This document shows positions 4,903 to 26,336 of a stretch of 41,362 nt of DNA, in pieces. The position numbers and the translations under genes are program-made. A model generated the notes under the pieces. That model made no database searches. It was not told where the DNA came from and saw nothing but the letters and a program-made list of their open reading frames with translations. Each line of letters starts with the position of its first letter. Position 1 is the stretch's first letter. This DNA comes from a virus, in the IMG/VR virus record IMGVR_UViG_3300009159_000125, positions 1-41,362 of that record; one strand, 5' to 3'.

Positions 4903-5741
4903 TATGCCTCCAGTTGTACAGCAACAAACGTACCGTTAATATCAGCGCCTGCTAGCGTTGTGGCCTTTACGTAGACTTTTGGTGCCACGGGATTCTCTGC
5001 ATTAAATCCTATTGCGGCAGGGCTGAATGTAACAGTTTCTGCACCGTTGGTAATAATTTCAGCAATAACGCCTGCGCTAGGGCTTGGGTCGGAACTATAA
5101 GGTCTACTAGCATCTGCTGTTCTTGCTGCCGCGGAATGGTATAATCTTACCCAACCTGCTGCCGAGGTACTGATTGAAAGTAATGCGAATCCTTTATAGG
5201 CTGTAACGTCTGACGTTCCATTAAAGTTAAAACTCTGTCTGGAAACAAACGTACCATTTTGTCCGTTGGTACCATTTTGTCCGTTGGTACCATTTGTACC
5301 ATTTGTACCAGCTGGGCCGACTGGACCCGGTACGCCAGTAGCACCTTGCGGTCCTTGTAACCCGGTTGGCCCCGATGGTCCCGGTAACCCAGTGGCACCC
5401 GGAACCCCCGATGGACCTTGTGGTCCTGTAGGACCACCGGCAGGACCGACAGGACCTTGTGATCCAGTAAACCCGGGTATTGTACTACGGCTACCAACGT
5501 ATCCTCGACTGCCAGCAAAACCCATTGGCCCTGGCAATCCCATAAAACCTTGCGGGCCTGTCGCGCCGCGACTGCCAATCCAACCCTGCGGCCCTGTTGC
5601 GCCCATTGGTCCGCTAGCACCCAGGCTACCATTGAATCCTTGGAAACCGCGACTACCAGTAAACCCTATACTACCAACAAATCCTTGGGGACCAGTTGCA
5701 CCAAAACTGCCTGTATATCCACGACTACCTGTAAATGACAT
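4902..5741 (-). CDS. Collagen-like fibre protein with C-terminal beta domain
   Basis: Of 279 residues, about 2-160 are Gly-X-Y triplets (starts [20 protein letters not shown]; later many GPQG/GPSG and NGT/NGQ triplets), expected to form a trimeric collagen-type rod. Residues from about 165 to 279 form a non-repetitive Ser/Thr/Ala-rich domain, likely a beta-rich trimer tip. Triplets with Pro in the X or Y place are more common here than in the other three collagen-like proteins of the window. It is flanked by another collagen-like gene upstream and the S8 protease downstream. It is likely a side or tail fibre, but which virion site it occupies cannot be told. Confidence 0.85.
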
Positions 5742-5747
5742 AATCTA

Positions 5748-6548
5748 CTACCTTGTATAAATTGTTATATCTGCTCGTACTGGAGGGTTGCCATCACCGT
5801 ATACATCCTTGATTGTAACTCTTACAGCATTCGAGTCGGTGTTCCAAGAAATAGTAATACTCTCCGAATTCCAAGGAAACCCTGTAGTACCAAACACAAA
5901 AATGTCATCAGTGACAACGGCCGCCATTGGCAATAATAGTGTAAAAGTGTATTTTGTTAAGTCTTGGCGAATAACAGAGGCCTTGACAAAAATATCATTG
6001 TATAGTCCGCGATAGTAACTAAAATCTTCGTCAAGGGTAAAATTAAGTTCCTGGTCTTGTAAGCCACTGCCACCAAACTGTGGAAGGGAACTATTAGTAA
6101 TTAATTTAATGCGAACCCATCCGCCTGCACCAGCACTGCCAGTAAAACCTCTGATACCGTTTATACCTATACTCCCGGTGTATCCTCTACTGCCATTGAA
6201 TCCTAGACTTCCTGTAAACCCGCGGATTCCGGTAGCCCCTACAACACCTCTGCTGCCAGTATACCCAATTGGTCCAGTGGCGCCCTGTTGCCCAACTGAT
6301 CCTTGTGGTCCAGTGGCACCTGGCGCACCTGATGTTCCGGTATCCCCTTTGACTCCAGGCGTTCCTCGACTACCAGTAAAACCAACGGCAGCAAACGCAC
6401 CTGCACTGCCTGTTAAACCAACGCTGCCTGCGTAGCCCCGACTGCCAGTATATCCTTTACTGCCAGTATATCCTTTGCTACCTATGTAGCCTTGGCCTCC
6501 GCAAGATGCTGCCATTGTAGCTGTAGTGAATTGGGGCTTTGATGTCAT
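5748..6548 (-). CDS. Collagen-like fibre protein
   Basis: This 266-residue protein has a short N-terminus containing AASCGGQGYIGSKG, an uninterrupted Gly-X-Y region (about residues 18-142, many GYTGS and GFTGS units) and a C-terminal globular domain of about 120 residues with mixed beta character. The Gly-repeat period of three is clear throughout. Its start overlaps the end of the upstream 475-residue gene by 4 bases. The C-terminal domain differs from that of the next collagen-like gene (4902-5741), so these look like two different fibre tips on similar rods. Virion location is inferred. Confidence 0.85.
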   Translation of the reverse strand: MTSKPQFTTATMAASCGGQGYIGSKGYTGSKGYTGSRGYAGSVGLTGSAGAFAAVGFTGSRGTPGVKGDTGTSGAPGATGPQGSVGQQGATGPIGYTGSRGVVGATGIRGFTGSLGFNGSRGYTGSIGINGIRGFTGSAGAGGWVRIKLITNSSLPQFGGSGLQDQELNFTLDEDFSYYRGLYNDIFVKASVIRQDLTKYTFTLLLPMAAVVTDDIFVFGTTGFPWNSESITISWNTDSNAVRVTIKDVYGDGNPPVRADITIYTR

Positions 6549-12524: not shown

Positions 12525-14796
12525 TGATATCCACTGTTGGTAAATCGTTAACGCTGTAACCTACTATATCAAACTCCATAGCGTTATCTCTGTAGTCAAT
12601 GCTGATAATAGAACCATTGTTTAGATTCTCAAATAGTATTTTCTTACTAACTGGTACTTTGATTAGTTCATTGATTGTTTTTGCCAGCGGTCTAGCACCC
12701 ATCTTAGGATCAAATCCTTTTTCTATTAGGTGGTCCACTGCGGCTTCGGTAAGTCTGATTTTAATTTGTTTTTCAGTTAACAGGTCGTTTATTTCGTTAA
12801 CAAACTTAGCCACAATCTTTTTCATACTAAGTTTGTCTAGTTTATTAAACTTACAAATAGCATCTAAGCGATTGCGAAACTCGGGTTTAAAGAAGTCTTT
12901 GACTGCTTTGGTATCTTCGTCGTTCTTTTGTAACTCACGACCAAATCCGATATTGTTGCGCTCGTTGTCTGCGGCACCCAAGTTACTGGTTAGAATAATC
13001 AGTGCATTGCGGCAGTCTGCACGTTTTCCATTGCTGGATGTAATAAAGCCTTCGTCCATTAGTTGCAACAAAATATTGCTAACATCTGGGTGTGCCTTTT
13101 CAATTTCGTCAAACAATAAAATAGCGTTAGGGCTTTTCTCAATGGCGCTGATCAACATACCGCCGCCTAGGTTGCTGTCGTCGTAGCCAACATAACCTGG
13201 AGGAGCACCTATTAGTTTAGCCACGCTGTGCTTTTCTTGATACTCGCTCATATCATAGCGTAGTAATTTCATTCCCATATGCTCACTGAGCAACTTGGCA
13301 AATTCTGTTTTACCAGTGCCAGTTGGGCCCAAGAACAAAAAGTTTCCAATGGGTTTGTTTAACGATTTTAGTCCAGCCTTGGCAACATAGATACGCTCTA
13401 GTACGCTGTCAACGACCTGATCCTGTCCGTATAGTTTTTCTTTAATGTTTTGATCCAGGCCAATCAAACTATTTGTAGCGTCTGTGCCAATTTGATCAAC
13501 GGGTATCTTGGTAAATTTACTCAAGATATCAATGATGTGACTTCTTTCTACAGTGTAGGGCTCGTCTTTTAGTTTGAGTTTAGCACAGGCTGTATCAATT
13601 AAGTCAATGGCCTTGTCAGGTAATTTTTTATCACTTTGATAACGAACACTTAAATCTACTGCGGCCACAATAGCTTCGTCACTGATGTCTGCATCGTGGA
13701 ATTCTTCGAAGTAGGGCTTTAAGCCACGAAGGATTTCTTTGGCTGTGTCCGGTGCAGGTTCATCTACAGTTAGTCTATAGAACCGGCGCATTAGAGCACG
13801 GTCTTTCTCAAAGCTCTGTGTATATTCTTCCCAGGTAGTGCTGGCAATAACTTTAAGTTGGCCTTTATTCAGTGCAGGTTTAATCATATTGCTAAAGTCT
13901 ACACTGCTTTGACTGCCGCCGCCAGCACCACGCATTTGATGAGCTTCGTCAATGAACAAAATAGTCTTGCCCTTGACAGTCAACGACTTAATAACATCAC
14001 GTAGCTTTTCTTCAAACTCCCCTCGATACTTACTACCGGCAAGTAGTGTACCAATGTCTAAATTGTAAACTGTGTAGTCTTTAAGATAGTTAGGAACTTC
14101 TCCGGTGCTGATCTTAAGTGCTAGTCCTTCAGCAATGGCAGTTTTACCTACGCCCGGATCACCTACTAATAGTACGTTGCTTTTGTTGCGTTTGGCAAGT
14201 ATATGCGAGATTTCTTCAAGTTCAGATTCACGACCAATGACAGGATCAATCTTTTTATCCTTGGCTTTTTTGCTAAGGTTTTCACAATACTCATCGAGTA
14301 TCTCATCTGCTTTTTGTGTAGTAGCGGCAATACGTCCTGGAATTTCGCTGTAATTCTTATTATAGAAATGTAGCAAAGCCTGACGATCCATTCCGTACTT
14401 TAAAATAAAATAACAAGCGTGGCTGTTAGTTTCGGCAGTTAAACTTAGGAATAGATCAACGATTTGAATGTGATCCCTTCCGCTGAACAACACCTGAGTC
14501 AATGCACGATTGAATACACGTTCTAGTGCGTGAGTTTTCTTGGGCCCGGATTCGTCGCCGTCGTCTACTGCGTATCTTTTATTAATGTAGCTACTCTGTT
14601 TCATAATGTAGCCTTCTAGGTCACTGTCTAGCCCATCAACATCAGCACCAAATTTAGATAACAGATCTTTAAAAGGCTGGAAACGAATAATACTAAGGAA
14701 CAAATGCTCCAGGGTAACATACTCGTGATTATGTTTTTTGGCTAGCTCTGTGGCATTGTTAATAATTACTTCAATCTCGGGGTTAGAGTGCATCAT
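12502..14796 (-). CDS. clpA: ClpA-like AAA+ unfoldase
   Basis: This 764-residue protein is nearly the length of E. coli ClpA (758). An N-domain with Clp repeats (about 1-145) precedes two AAA+ modules. Module 1 has Walker A GDPGVGKT (212-219) and Walker B ILFIDEAH (279-286). Module 2 has Walker A GPTGTGKT (490-497), GAPPGYVGYDD (530-540) and Walker B ILLFDEIEKAHP (559-570). There is no ClpB-type coiled-coil middle domain. An IGF tripeptide (NNIGFGR, 614-620) stands where ClpA carries the IGL loop that docks on ClpP, so it may dock on host ClpP; no clpP gene is in the window. It follows dnaJ by a one-base overlap. It would unfold proteins by ATP hydrolysis in the cytoplasm. Confidence 0.93.
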   Translation of the reverse strand: MMHSNPEIEVIINNATELAKKHNHEYVTLEHLFLSIIRFQPFKDLLSKFGADVDGLDSDLEGYIMKQSSYINKRYAVDDGDESGPKKTHALERVFNRALTQVLFSGRDHIQIVDLFLSLTAETNSHACYFILKYGMDRQALLHFYNKNYSEIPGRIAATTQKADEILDEYCENLSKKAKDKKIDPVIGRESELEEISHILAKRNKSNVLLVGDPGVGKTAIAEGLALKISTGEVPNYLKDYTVYNLDIGTLLAGSKYRGEFEEKLRDVIKSLTVKGKTILFIDEAHQMRGAGGGSQSSVDFSNMIKPALNKGQLKVIASTTWEEYTQSFEKDRALMRRFYRLTVDEPAPDTAKEILRGLKPYFEEFHDADISDEAIVAAVDLSVRYQSDKKLPDKAIDLIDTACAKLKLKDEPYTVERSHIIDILSKFTKIPVDQIGTDATNSLIGLDQNIKEKLYGQDQVVDSVLERIYVAKAGLKSLNKPIGNFLFLGPTGTGKTEFAKLLSEHMGMKLLRYDMSEYQEKHSVAKLIGAPPGYVGYDDSNLGGGMLISAIEKSPNAILLFDEIEKAHPDVSNILLQLMDEGFITSSNGKRADCRNALIILTSNLGAADNERNNIGFGRELQKNDEDTKAVKDFFKPEFRNRLDAICKFNKLDKLSMKKIVAKFVNEINDLLTEKQIKIRLTEAAVDHLIEKGFDPKMGARPLAKTINELIKVPVSKKILFENLNNGSIISIDYRDNAMEFDIVGYSVNDLPTVDINGYIRMD

Positions 14797-15539
14797 TATA
14801 CTGTTTCTTTATTTTTAAGTTCTTTGCTAATTGACTCGAGTTGTAACAATTGACTTGTGGTCAAGTTGCTTGGTACAAACAAATCGGCGACTATAATTAG
14901 ATTGCCTCTAATGGGTTGATCAACGGCCCACAAGCCTTGAAAGGGGATTCTAAACTTTGTTGCGTGTTGTGTTCCGACCGGAACATTCCAACTAAATTCA
15001 GTTCCGTCTAAGCCTTTGATATTTAAGGTTGTGCCAGTTATTGCGTCTATACAGTTTAACTTAATCAGTTTGATTAAGTCAATGCCTTCGACAATAAAAT
15101 CTGGGCTTGGCCGTACTCTGAATTCAATGTAGAGATCCCCGGGTGGTAAATCGCCATAGCTACTGTCGCCATAGTTGGCGTACTTCATTTGCATCTGGTT
15201 GTTTACACCACGTGGGATTTCCACGCTTACTGTTTGTCTTGATCCGTTTAGATGTTTTACACTAATGTGCTTAGTTTGTTTTTCTAATGTTTCGGAAAGA
15301 TCTAGTTCAACAGTTACACGTAGATCCTTGTTGCGGCGTGGTGGTGGTGCATTACGGAATCCTTGACCAAACGGATCATTATTGAAGTTCCTAAAAATTT
15401 CATCAATGTTTATACCACCGCCACCAAAGTTGAAGTGGAATCCTCCTGGAAATCCACCAGGGTGATGCTGTTGATGGAATTGTTGAAAGCCGCCGTGTCG
15501 CATCTGGCTCCACTCGGCTTTCTTTTGTGGGTCAGACAA
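14796..15539 (-). CDS. dnaJ: DnaJ-like co-chaperone, C-terminal part (frameshifted from J-domain)
   Basis: This 247-residue open frame holds the end of a J-domain, a Gly/Phe-rich linker ([20 protein letters not shown]) and the two beta-barrel substrate-binding domains of a CbpA-type DnaJ. These include [25 protein letters not shown] and [11 protein letters not shown]. There is no CxxCxGxG zinc finger, so it is a type II J-protein. Its first ATG is an internal Met of the full gene: reading in this frame before it gives [15 protein letters not shown], the normal J-domain helix IV. The true start is at 15688 in another frame. One missing A near 15560-15562 separates the two. It would stimulate DnaK ATPase and deliver clients. 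Confidence 0.85.
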
Positions 15540-15688
15540 TACAGCATACGCTTCTTGTATTTCTGAAATTGGGCTTGATCACCACCCCTGTCAGGGTGGT
15601 GTTTCATTGCCAAACTGCGATATGCCTTTTTTATTTCGTCATCAGTGGCGCCTTCTCCTACGCCAAGTATATCAAAATAATTTTTCAT
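15410..15688 (-). CDS. dnaJ: DnaJ-like co-chaperone, N-terminal J-domain part (frameshifted)
   Basis: The frame starts with ATG at 15688 and reads [20 protein letters not shown], then [15 protein letters not shown], a textbook J-domain with the HPD motif (DnaK-activating) at about residues 31-33. After QAQFQK the reading becomes senseless ([17 protein letters not shown]...), while the next frame continues the family sequence. Restoring one A in the AAA run (15560-15562) joins both parts into one protein of about 297 residues. Either the gene is broken in this genome, or a base was lost in sequencing. The promoter and overlapping inverted repeat lie just upstream at 15706-15740. Confidence 0.8.
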
Positions 15689-20109: not shown

Positions 20110-20847
20110 TTGTCAAAACGTAGAAACAGAGCTTACGCTCAACAAATGGAAGTTAGTGATAGTAATACAATTAGCTTTAATTCTTATTCCCAGTACAAGA
20201 AAGCAGTCAATTTAATCCCCAAGAGCTTAAAACAAGAAGAGTACATAAATCTATTAACAGATCCTAATCGTACTATTGTATTTGCCACGGGACCAGCTGG
20301 CACAGGTAAAACTATGTTGGCAGTAATGGCGGCTGTACGTGCCTACAAGGCCGGTGAAGTTAACAGAATTGTGATTACTAGACCAGCTGTTGGCGTAGAC
20401 GATGAAAAACACGGGTTTTTACCCGGGGATTTAAATGCTAAAATGGAACCGTGGACTAGACCCATAATGGACGTCATTATGGAATATTACAGTCCCAAAG
20501 ATGTAGCCCGTATGTTAGATGAACAAGCAATTGAGATCTCTCCACTAGCATATATGCGAGGTAGAACATTTAAACAATCGTGGATCATTGCTGACGAAAT
20601 GCAGAATGCCACACCAAACCAAATGAAAATGTTACTGACTCGTTTAGGCGATGGTTCCAGGATGGTAGTGACAGGGGACACCCGTCAAGCCGATAGGAAT
20701 GAAGCGGACAACGGCCTGCTAAACTTCCAACGTCTAGTAGACAACTACAAACGTTGCCAGTATGTAGCAGGGGTAGAGTTCTCTGGCAAAGACATCCACA
20801 GGCATCCTGCTGTTGTGGAAGTGCTAAAAATTTACGGGGAGATCTAA
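20110..20847 (+). CDS. phoH: PhoH-like P-loop ATPase
   Basis: This 245-residue protein is the only plus-strand gene in the window. Walker A is GPAGTGKT (61-68), followed by ITRPAVGVDDEKHGFLPGD (89-107), a PhoH hallmark. Walker B is WIIADEMQN (158-166), then LTRLGDGSRMVVTGDTRQ. The length fits the family's ATPase domain. It starts with TTG at 20110 after a good AGGAGG. PhoH is a very common auxiliary gene of marine phages; its biochemical role (RNA helicase/nuclease-linked ATPase) in infection is unsettled, and I see no Pho box. Its stop overlaps that of the facing HAD gene by 3 bases, with no terminator between. Confidence 0.95.
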   Translation: MSKRRNRAYAQQMEVSDSNTISFNSYSQYKKAVNLIPKSLKQEEYINLLTDPNRTIVFATGPAGTGKTMLAVMAAVRAYKAGEVNRIVITRPAVGVDDEKHGFLPGDLNAKMEPWTRPIMDVIMEYYSPKDVARMLDEQAIEISPLAYMRGRTFKQSWIIADEMQNATPNQMKMLLTRLGDGSRMVVTGDTRQADRNEADNGLLNFQRLVDNYKRCQYVAGVEFSGKDIHRHPAVVEVLKIYGEI

Positions 20848-22429: not shown

Positions 22430-22822
22430 TTAATATGTAAATGCGCCCAGACTTGCAAGTTCTTTTTCACAATTATCTCGGTACTTGGGCTCGACGTGCA
22501 ATTCGATATCCTTACCGGCTTCTAATAGATCTAATAGATCTTTTGCTTCCTTGAGTCCCAAACGCCGAGTATCCAACATTCTAAATGCCTTGATCAGTGA
22601 TACTTTGTTGCTTCCGGTCTTAAAACCCCTAATGGCAACACGGTCGGTATACTGACCGGTGATCATAGCAAAAAACATTTCGCCTTTAACATCGGGATCT
22701 AGTACTACTGCAATCTGTTCCCACAGTTCTATACCTTTTTCAGGACCATAGGCTTCTGTGATTTTGCGTACAAATTGTATGCCTGCACTGATTATTGTGG
22801 ATTTGTGGTCCGATGGTATCAT
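22430..22822 (-). CDS. Protein with ribosomal L7/L12 C-terminal-like domain
   Basis: I choose the ATG at 22822 because the upstream 52-residue gene ends at 22824; a longer frame to 22879 would run through it. The 130-residue protein has a helical N-terminal half (STIISAGIQFVRKITEAYGP). The C-terminal part (about 62-130) contains VSLIKAFRMLDTRRLGLKEAKDLL..., whose LGLKEAKDL core matches the C-terminal domain of ribosomal protein L7/L12, the part that recruits translation factors. It may mimic that domain to influence host translation, or simply share the fold. Confidence 0.65.
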   Translation of the reverse strand: MIPSDHKSTIISAGIQFVRKITEAYGPEKGIELWEQIAVVLDPDVKGEMFFAMITGQYTDRVAIRGFKTGSNKVSLIKAFRMLDTRRLGLKEAKDLLDLLEAGKDIELHVEPKYRDNCEKELASLGAFTY

Positions 22823-22823
22823 A

Positions 22824-22982
22824 TTAAATATCCCAGGCACGATCACAGCCGCGGTGTTTTGGGCGCCGTTGGTGTACATTCTTGGGACGCTCTATACGCG
22901 GCTTAAACGGCAGATCAGCATCCCACAGGACTTTGTGCTGTAGTATCCGTTTTTTCTGTGATTTTGGAATTACGATCTTCAT
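22824..22982 (-). CDS. Small basic protein, 52 residues, early-promoted
   Basis: The frame starts with ATG at 22982 and ends with TAA at 22824, one base before the next ATG (TAATATG). The sequence MKIVIPKSQKKRILQHKVLW is followed by DADLPFKPRIERPKN and a very basic end (HQRRPKHRGCDRAWDI). The strong positive charge suggests nucleic-acid or ribosome binding. A perfect sigma70 promoter lies just upstream, so transcription would start within a few bases of the ATG and the mRNA has almost no leader. Function unknown; the gene itself is well supported. Confidence 0.78.
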   Translation of the reverse strand: MKIVIPKSQKKRILQHKVLWDADLPFKPRIERPKNVHQRRPKHRGCDRAWDI

Positions 22983-22990
22983 AATGGCTA

Positions 22991-23019
22991 ATTATACAGT
23001 AAAATCGGCCACTTGTCAA
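22991..23019 (-). promoter_or_regulatory. Perfect consensus sigma70 promoter
   Basis: On the minus strand, TTGACA (23014-23019), a 17-base spacer and TATAAT (22991-22996), both boxes fully consensus. The expected start (about 22984) lies 1-3 bases before the ATG at 22982, so the message would be leaderless or nearly so. Confidence 0.85.
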
Positions 23020-23033
23020 TCGGGAAAATATTA

Positions 23034-23282
23034 CTACTTTCGTTGTAGCGTTTGTATGACACGACGAAGCGAGTCTACATAATTTTCCAAGTATCTATTC
23101 TTGCTTTCTAAGCGAGTAACCTGCGACTCAAGCCTGCTCAGTCTTTCGGAGTTTTCGTCAATGGCCTGACGAGTATCTTTAAGTTCCTTGACCTGACCCA
23201 ACAATGTTGGTGGGGGCGGAGCATTGGGATCTCTAACTCTGGTCTTTTTATGCTTATACAGTTGCTTGAAAAGTGGATTCAT
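23034..23282 (-). CDS. Small coiled-coil protein
   Basis: This 82-residue protein has a basic, Pro-containing N-terminus (MNPLFKQLYKHKKTRVRDPN, then APPPPTLLGQ) and a strong heptad coiled coil from about residue 33 to the end (ENSERLSRLESQVTRLESKN). It probably oligomerises. A perfect T4 late promoter motif lies 6 bases before the ATG, so the expected transcription start is at or next to the ATG. It is followed by the consensus sigma70 promoter of the 52-residue gene. Function unknown. Confidence 0.65.
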   Translation of the reverse strand: MNPLFKQLYKHKKTRVRDPNAPPPPTLLGQVKELKDTRQAIDENSERLSRLESQVTRLESKNRYLENYVDSLRRVIQTLQRK

Positions 23283-25097: not shown

Positions 25098-25413
25098 TTT
25101 TAGTAACCTCAACAAATTCATATCCCAGCTCTTTAATGACTGGGTCTAGATATTTACTATAACCTTCGTAAAAGTGTTCAAATAAGTCATCAAAGTTTGT
25201 GTCAGATTTCCAACTATTTCTGTACACTGTGCGATTGGTCAAATCCAGGATAACCTTGGCAGTGGTTAAATCCTTGGTCTTTAATCTACGGGCAATGGCA
25301 ATTTGCTCGTCGTATTTAAAGCCATTGGGGTCGTCCATCCATCCTGGTTTTTGTGTTTGCTTAGTATTTGGTTTGATGTAATAATAGGCTACAAGGTAAA
25401 TTGATTTAGACAT
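25060..25413 (-). CDS. Unknown small protein
   Basis: This 117-residue protein starts MSKSIYLVAYYYIKPNTKQT, then PGWMDDPNGFKYDEQIAIAR, then a strand-helix section (KDLTTAKVILDLTNRTVYRN; FEHFYEGYSKYLDPVIKELG). It has an alpha/beta look and no catalytic motif. Its ATG overlaps the stop of the clamp-loader gene by one base (TAATG type), placing it in the replication operon. No family is recognised. Confidence 0.7.
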   Translation of the reverse strand: MSKSIYLVAYYYIKPNTKQTQKPGWMDDPNGFKYDEQIAIARRLKTKDLTTAKVILDLTNRTVYRNSWKSDTNFDDLFEHFYEGYSKYLDPVIKELGYEFVEVTKNETVSQDRITSD

Positions 25414-26336
25414 TATGATCCAATTTCTGTTAGTTCGACTAGGGTTGCACTCAAATTAATTTCAGCGTCGGCAATCTGGCTGTGTCTAACCATAGCACGA
25501 GCAATTATCTTTATCGCCTCATCTTGTCCTTCTGGAGACTTACTCCACAGTGTGAGGTTATCGTACATCCAACGGAATACTTCTTCCATCTCTTCACCAC
25601 GTGCCTGGCTGACCAACAGTTGTCTTGCTTCGCGGATCTTACCAGATTTAAACAACTCAACCATTTTAAGTTTATAGTCTGCTGTGCCAGTGTCACTGTC
25701 TTTGGGACTAGTTAGCTTGCCGCTGGTACTGTTAGGTTGTACAAGATTTAGACATTTGCGTAAATCTGGATATGTTGCTTTTACATAACTGTCTAGAGTG
25801 TCCAGGTCAAAGTCTACGCCTTCTGTTACCAATATTGTAGCAACACGGGCAGTAAATTCTGTTTGGTCAGTTTTGTCCACAGCCAACTCGCAACAACGTG
25901 ACTTGAGTGGAGGAATAATCTTATGTGCTAAATTACAGGTAAGAATGAAACGTGCTTGACTTTGATATGTTTCCATTAGGCCACGCAGGATACCTTGTGC
26001 GTTATGTGACAAGTAGTCTGCTTCGTCTAACAATACAATCTTAAGATCGCCAAATGGCATTGTGCTGACAAAGCCTTCAATCTTTGTCTTTAAAAAGTCC
26101 ACACCGTTGTCTCGGCTTGCGTTAACTTGTAAAAAGTCAAAGTTGTCAATACCAAGCTGGTGTACTAACAGTTTTGCCAGTGTTGTTTTGCCTGTGCCTG
26201 CTGGCCCGTAGAGCAACAAATGTGGCACACTCTTTTCTTTAATCCAAGTCTCGACTTGTTCTTTAGTGCCTACATCTGTAAACACATATCCATCGACGTC
26301 CTTGGGTCTATACTTTTCTGTCCAAAGTTCTTTCAT
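25413..26336 (-). CDS. 44: Sliding-clamp loader large subunit (gp44-like AAA+ ATPase)
   Basis: This 307-residue protein has the clamp-loader layout. It starts ELWTEKYRPKDVDGYVF, a typical RFC/gp44 start, with Walker A GPAGTGKT (44-51), Walker B VLLDEAD (101-107) with DEAD, sensor-1 Asn in ILTCNLAHKI (131-140), and LKSRC (144-148), whose Arg is the finger that senses ATP in the neighbouring subunit. The C-terminal helical collar follows. It would load the phage sliding clamp at primer ends with a gp62-like partner not seen in this window. The start overlaps the zinc-protein stop by 4 bases. Confidence 0.92.
   Translation of the reverse strand: MKELWTEKYRPKDVDGYVFTDVGTKEQVETWIKEKSVPHLLLYGPAGTGKTTLAKLLVHQLGIDNFDFLQVNASRDNGVDFLKTKIEGFVSTMPFGDLKIVLLDEADYLSHNAQGILRGLMETYQSQARFILTCNLAHKIIPPLKSRCCELAVDKTDQTEFTARVATILVTEGVDFDLDTLDSYVKATYPDLRKCLNLVQPNSTSGKLTSPKDSDTGTADYKLKMVELFKSGKIREARQLLVSQARGEEMEEVFRWMYDNLTLWSKSPEGQDEAIKIIARAMVRHSQIADAEINLSATLVELTEIGS

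Follow-up and report, generated by a model that had tools for sequence, protein, structure and literature searches.

The window, i.e., the whole 41,362-base stretch of an IMG/VR virus record from an uncultivated T4-like phage, carries almost all of its genes on the minus strand and includes a gp44-like clamp loader gene at 25413-26336. Positions 23019..22980 on the minus strand read TTGACA-AGTGGCCGATTTTACTG-TATAAT-TAGCCATT-ATG, where the ATG opens the gene for p52, a basic protein of 52 amino acids (22824..22982, minus strand) that contains the ArfA-like segment DLPFKPRIERPKNVHQRRPKH. ArfA is a bacterial protein that rescues stalled ribosomes. Upstream lies cc82 (23034..23282, minus strand), a conserved gene for an 82-aa coiled-coil-like protein found in 45 related loci. 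A PhoH-like gene (20110-20847) runs on the plus strand amid the minus-strand genes, an opposite orientation that L003 and several further relatives share. No match to Rfam was found within the window.

Downstream, the gene at 22430..22822 (minus strand) specifies a 130-aa protein in which a helical N-terminal domain is joined to a bL12 (L7/L12) C-terminal domain. A single base separates its start from the p52 stop (22430-22822 against 22824-22982), just as the sequence-only reading had placed an L7/L12-like gene. The product matches PF00542 with 29.0 bits (cut-off 25.9), which assigns the C-terminal domain to bL12; its AlphaFold2 model has a pLDDT of 83.7, its closest counterpart in the PDB is L7/L12 (8yeq, Foldseek probability 0.99 but E 0.06), and a viral homologue exists (A0A6J7WGF4, E 1e-6). 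The whole-protein bL12 model TIGR00855 gave 19.7 bits against a threshold of 84.4, over model positions 66-120 only, and the N-terminal helical domain was unmatched by L12 models.

We compared the window with 80 loci related via the gp44-like clamp loader, with which it has much of its gene order in common. The closest relative, L003, is collinear over the cc82, p52 and phoH region and has no bL12-like gene, so that p52 and the bL12-like gene are not an obligate pair; conversely, bL12-like loci L002, L042, L043 and L067 have no p52 match. In L002, a relative of the bL12-like gene (5001-5393) has downstream, within 1 kb, an ORF with an RF-1 (GGQ) domain (5933-6340; Pfam PF00472, 1.6e-14), which, being like release factors and ArfB, is possibly another ribosome-rescue gene near a bL12-domain gene.

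A consensus promoter joined to the p52 start codon

The −35 box TTGACA (23014..23019, minus strand) and the −10 box TATAAT (22991..22996, minus strand), located by a site search with shuffle comparison, each match the sigma70 consensus in six of six positions and are separated by a spacer of 17 nt. With spacers of 16-18 nt scanned, the 41,362-base window holds no second 12/12 site besides this one (23019..22991), and the perfect consensus claimed from the sequence alone is confirmed. In 100 dinucleotide-preserving shuffles of the window, the mean was 0.07 such sites per shuffled window and five shuffles held one.

Transcription from sigma70 promoters is expected to start about 7 nt past the −10 box, with a preference for purines. 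By this spacing, the predicted start is A22985 or A22982 (22982..22985, minus strand). The p52 ATG (22982-22980) is separated from the −10 box by the 8 nt TAGCCATT, and the predicted leader thus measures 3 nt (A22985) or 0 nt (A22982). An in-frame TAA (22994-22992) sits within the −10 box, upstream of the ATG, and there is no other in-frame ATG, GTG or TTG between this ATG and the conserved motif of the protein; therefore, the p52 frame must start at 22982. No Shine–Dalgarno (SD)-like sequence precedes that ATG in the window sequence. The gene accordingly has the sequence traits of a leaderless gene, i.e., no SD, an AUG start and a conserved spacing to the −10 box.

In L003, the p52 homologue (47% identity to the window p52, E 2e-8) is preceded by TTGACA-17-TAAAAT, an 11/12 promoter, with the ATG 7 nt from the −10 box. 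Among 39 non-redundant p52 pairs with 11-12/12 promoters, the ATG follows the −10 box at 6-9 nt in 26 and at 27-37 nt in 13; some family members (L105, L113, L122) have long leaders with an SD. Most homologues thus have the same promoter layout, and the proposed fusion of promoter and start codon, giving a nearly leaderless message, gains strong support from the comparison. The p52 distances vary more than those of the other close-spaced genes, with their peak at exactly 6 nt (see below), so that a leader of 1-3 nt is possible for p52.

The junction downstream of cc82 carries such a promoter in other relatives too: a 12/12 site in L009 and an 11/12 site in L006, both before a HAD/NT5C-like gene, and 11/12 sites in L044, L046 and L048 with other genes behind, the ATG being 5-6 nt away in each of the five. 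In all five, the TGA stop of cc82 forms part of the −35 box, TTGAC(A/T/C). By sequence comparison, the position of the promoter at this junction is common to relatives, with different genes standing behind it. Behind the fused promoter of L088 (4980-5147), L089, L044 and L048, the homologous start is preceded by a second ATG, short or in-frame (MYSARST before MKIVVK, for instance, or MNSDNGQVNES before the next gene); these extra ATGs possibly open leader peptides.

The p52 family and its likeness to ArfA

The window p52 alone as query found no match in viral contigs, PDB, Pfam or NCBIfam, nor in the phage nucleotide collection, and its best match in PHROGs stood at 0.067. An alignment of two sequences led to 17 homologous loci and an enlarged alignment to 64, in which we found 47 non-redundant members of an unnamed phage family with the consensus RAHRVLFDRDLPF[RK]P[RK]xExSKxxYxRRxKH. 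Searched with a single short pattern, bacterial genomes did not yield the family. Pfam DUF7230 matches few members, in the tail only and below its cut-off, and phrog_6310 likewise matches few members; both were rejected as descriptions of the family. The AlphaFold2 model of p52 (pLDDT 65.6) is uninformative. Pairwise dN/dS in the family has a median of 0.24 and is below 0.5 in 90% of the usable pairs, a sign that this frame is translated and under purifying selection. With its conserved homologues and conserved start, the 52-codon gene picked out from the sequence alone can be taken as real.

A tblastn search of cultured phages with the member from L098 gave as best match a protein annotated as ArfA in Pseudoalteromonas phage J2-1 (E 0.9). 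Aligned with hhalign, the p52 family and diverse bacterial ArfA scored 28.2 (probability 68%); none of 300 column-shuffled profiles reached this score, the shuffle maximum being 19.3. The J2-1 protein bridges both sides, with probabilities of 97.7% with ArfA and 90.3% with p52. Against the p52 profile, Escherichia coli ArfA scored 24.8, and none of nine other small basic proteins associated with ribosomes exceeded 14.3 (of these ten test sequences, that of ArfA was checked). The similarity to ArfA is confined to about 24 columns of the basic C-terminal tail, the part of ArfA associated with the mRNA channel.

Within this stretch, F26, K27, R29, I30 and E31 of the window p52 align with F25, R26, R28, V29 and E30 of ArfA, a set with several residues in contact with RF2 or with the decoding centre (PMC8012679, PMC8874680). 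Among 44 family members, the Phe is invariant, the two following basic positions are K/R in 41 and 43, and the next is V/I in 27; the equivalent of E30 is Glu in only 15 and Val in 24. The ArfA model PF03889 did not match the window p52, was absent from the matches of 14 family members and found nothing in the window DNA even at E ≤ 10. In p52, the N-terminus of ArfA (residues 1-14 and the A18 region) is unrecognisable, the alignments end at a P-F motif, and the KGKGSY stretch is shortened relative to ArfA. On these similarities, p52 is probably a ribosome-targeting protein that resembles ArfA; we are inclined to think that it works like ArfA, yet would not file it as a member of that family. 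This more specific reading takes the place of the early host-takeover protein suggested from the sequence alone.

Genes opening at the predicted transcription start in large phages

The survey took in 322 non-redundant promoter-ORF pairs from the window and from loci L002-L162; these loci, having been picked via the clamp loader or p52, do not make up a random sample. The distance from −10 box to ATG is bimodal, with one peak at exactly 6 nt, i.e., with the ATG at the predicted +1, and a second at 20-34 nt with an SD. For genes other than p52, 50 pairs fall at 5-9 nt (39 at exactly 6), 10 at 10-19 nt and 182 at 20-34 nt. SD-like motifs occur in 166 of 203 pairs at 16-40 nt and in none of 84 at 10 nt or less, the latter partly a trivial result, as a 6-nt leader has no room for one. 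GTG and TTG starts show no close-distance peak in the 322-pair survey.

The close class includes genes for HAD phosphatases, which carry the DxDG motif close to their start, and for DnaJ, where the start is fixed because the J-domain begins at residue 2. In L025, L037, L039, L040, L014, L019, L021 and L036, the dnaJ ATG lies exactly 6 nt from a near-perfect sigma70 promoter; the window dnaJ has a 23-nt leader with an SD instead. The latter gene (14796-15688, minus strand) consists of two overlapping frames (15410-15688 and 14796-15539) where its relatives have a single ORF of 273-288 aa, and the split reflects either a frameshift or a sequencing error.

In 15 large viral records, perfect sites (zero-mismatch rows) number 25 with the ATG at 6 nt, one of them common to records G315 and G316, and two at 12 nt, the spacing used as control; in 299 Pseudomonadota genomes, the corresponding numbers are two and two. 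The statement that such a promoter is rare for any genome consequently holds for bacteria and fails for this phage group. In IMG/VR pattern scans, which yield proportions and not totals, the ATG opens at least 60 codons in 76 of 117 cases at 6 nt and in 25 of 108 at 12 nt among the matches listed. Genes resembling those for thymidylate synthase, clamp loader, deaminase, FEN and UvsW open 6 nt past perfect promoters (L281-L400, among the matches listed), and inspection by eye of the IMG/VR matches listed is suggestive of replication and nucleotide genes dominating the 6-nt class. PA5oct, the nearest cultured relative by clamp loader, makes no clear model: it has one perfect 6-nt site, the ATG of which opens only three codons.

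Proposed function, rival explanations and known systems

We propose that a host-sigma70-type promoter fused to the start codon drives an ArfA-like, ribosome-binding p52, a reading which we hold to be reasonably probable. Host RNA polymerase would start at the p52 AUG, or 1-3 nt before it, to yield a leaderless or near-leaderless mRNA, the AUG of which 70S ribosomes would take without SD pairing. In a read-through transcript, the same AUG would be internal, weak and without an SD; hence p52 would be made mainly from its own promoter. The basic C-terminal tail may reach into the vacant mRNA channel of a stalled ribosome while the F-K-P-R-I-E segment recruits a release factor, whereby p52 would free ribosomes stalled on cut mRNAs during infection. 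The bL12-domain protein would probably be made by coupled re-initiation after the p52 stop one base away.

It is possible, if somewhat unlikely, that the fusion is real but p52 is another takeover protein, binding nucleic acid or polymerase, with an ArfA-like tail that arose by convergence. p52 is short, basic and of low complexity, it aligns with ArfA over some 24 columns only, and it has neither the ArfA N-terminus nor a PF03889 match. Against convergence, no comparable score came from 300 column-shuffled profiles or from the nine other small basic proteins, and the J2-1 protein, annotated as ArfA in the database and equally shortened in its tail, matches both families. As for the promoter, we judge it very unlikely that p52 is translated from longer transcripts started upstream, the closeness of promoter and ATG being incidental or a matter of compaction only. 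Read-through is likely where the surrounding genes are on the same strand and tightly packed, with cc82 ahead, and the long SD-bearing leaders of some homologues point the same way. Against such transcripts speak the p52 ATG devoid of an SD, the separate, sharp peak at 6 nt with few genes at 8-19 nt and ATG starts only, and the junction promoter kept although the downstream gene differs among relatives. It is scarcely credible that the perfect promoter arose by chance or as an AT-rich artefact, and conservation already disfavours this: about 5% of shuffled windows hold one such site, but the collinear L003 has an 11/12 site at the same position, several others have 11-12/12 sites at the junction, and in large viral records the 6-nt layout is enriched over the 12-nt controls.

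Beyond the fused promoter and the ArfA-like p52 that we favour, one may imagine that T4-like phages of a broad uncultivated group run a dedicated leaderless programme, in which many AUGs at +1 of host-type promoters would be translated only from their own transcripts, and p52 and bL12-domain proteins would change ribosomes so as to favour such messages; we consider this quite unlikely. What sequence comparison predicts is a whole leaderless class of genes among large T4-like phages, opened by start codons that coincide with +1 of promoters close to consensus. The fused layout would insulate genes from read-through, and translation could then begin without SD pairing. p52 itself is a candidate phage ribosome-rescue family without a name in Pfam or NCBIfam.

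To our knowledge, where leaderless messages are cited for phages that infect Gram-negative hosts, they usually figure as isolated examples, e.g., lambda cI. Among the papers searched, which take in only a minority of subscription journals, none describes a class of leaderless genes in T4-like phages. The genes described here resemble leaderless bacterial and phage mRNAs such as that of lambda cI (review: PMC9031893) in having an AUG, and only AUG, at or beside the predicted 5′ end and no SD, and differ from them in that many genes per genome are concerned, in large T4-like phages and behind near-consensus sigma70 promoters. Phage-encoded bL12 domains have been reported before (PMC6375957); the product of 22430-22822 has the PF00542 C-terminal domain in common with these proteins, but here it is joined to a phage-specific helical N-terminal domain, and among the loci examined the gene stands behind p52 in the window virus only. 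With ArfA, which in E. coli is under RNase III/non-stop regulation, and with its phage copies in J2-1 and in pelagiphage HTVC027P (gp30; PMC12753301), p52 has in common the size of active ArfA, the basic C-terminal tail, the Y/H-x-R-x-x-K-H tail and in part, as the Glu is kept in only 15 of 44 members, the F-[RK]-x-[RK]-[VI/T]-E segment, and with the J2-1 protein also the shortened KGKGSY stretch; unlike ArfA, it has the N-terminus RAHRVLFDRDLPF in place of GxxKDNAIEALLHDPLF, does not match PF03889 and possesses a near-leaderless promoter of its own.
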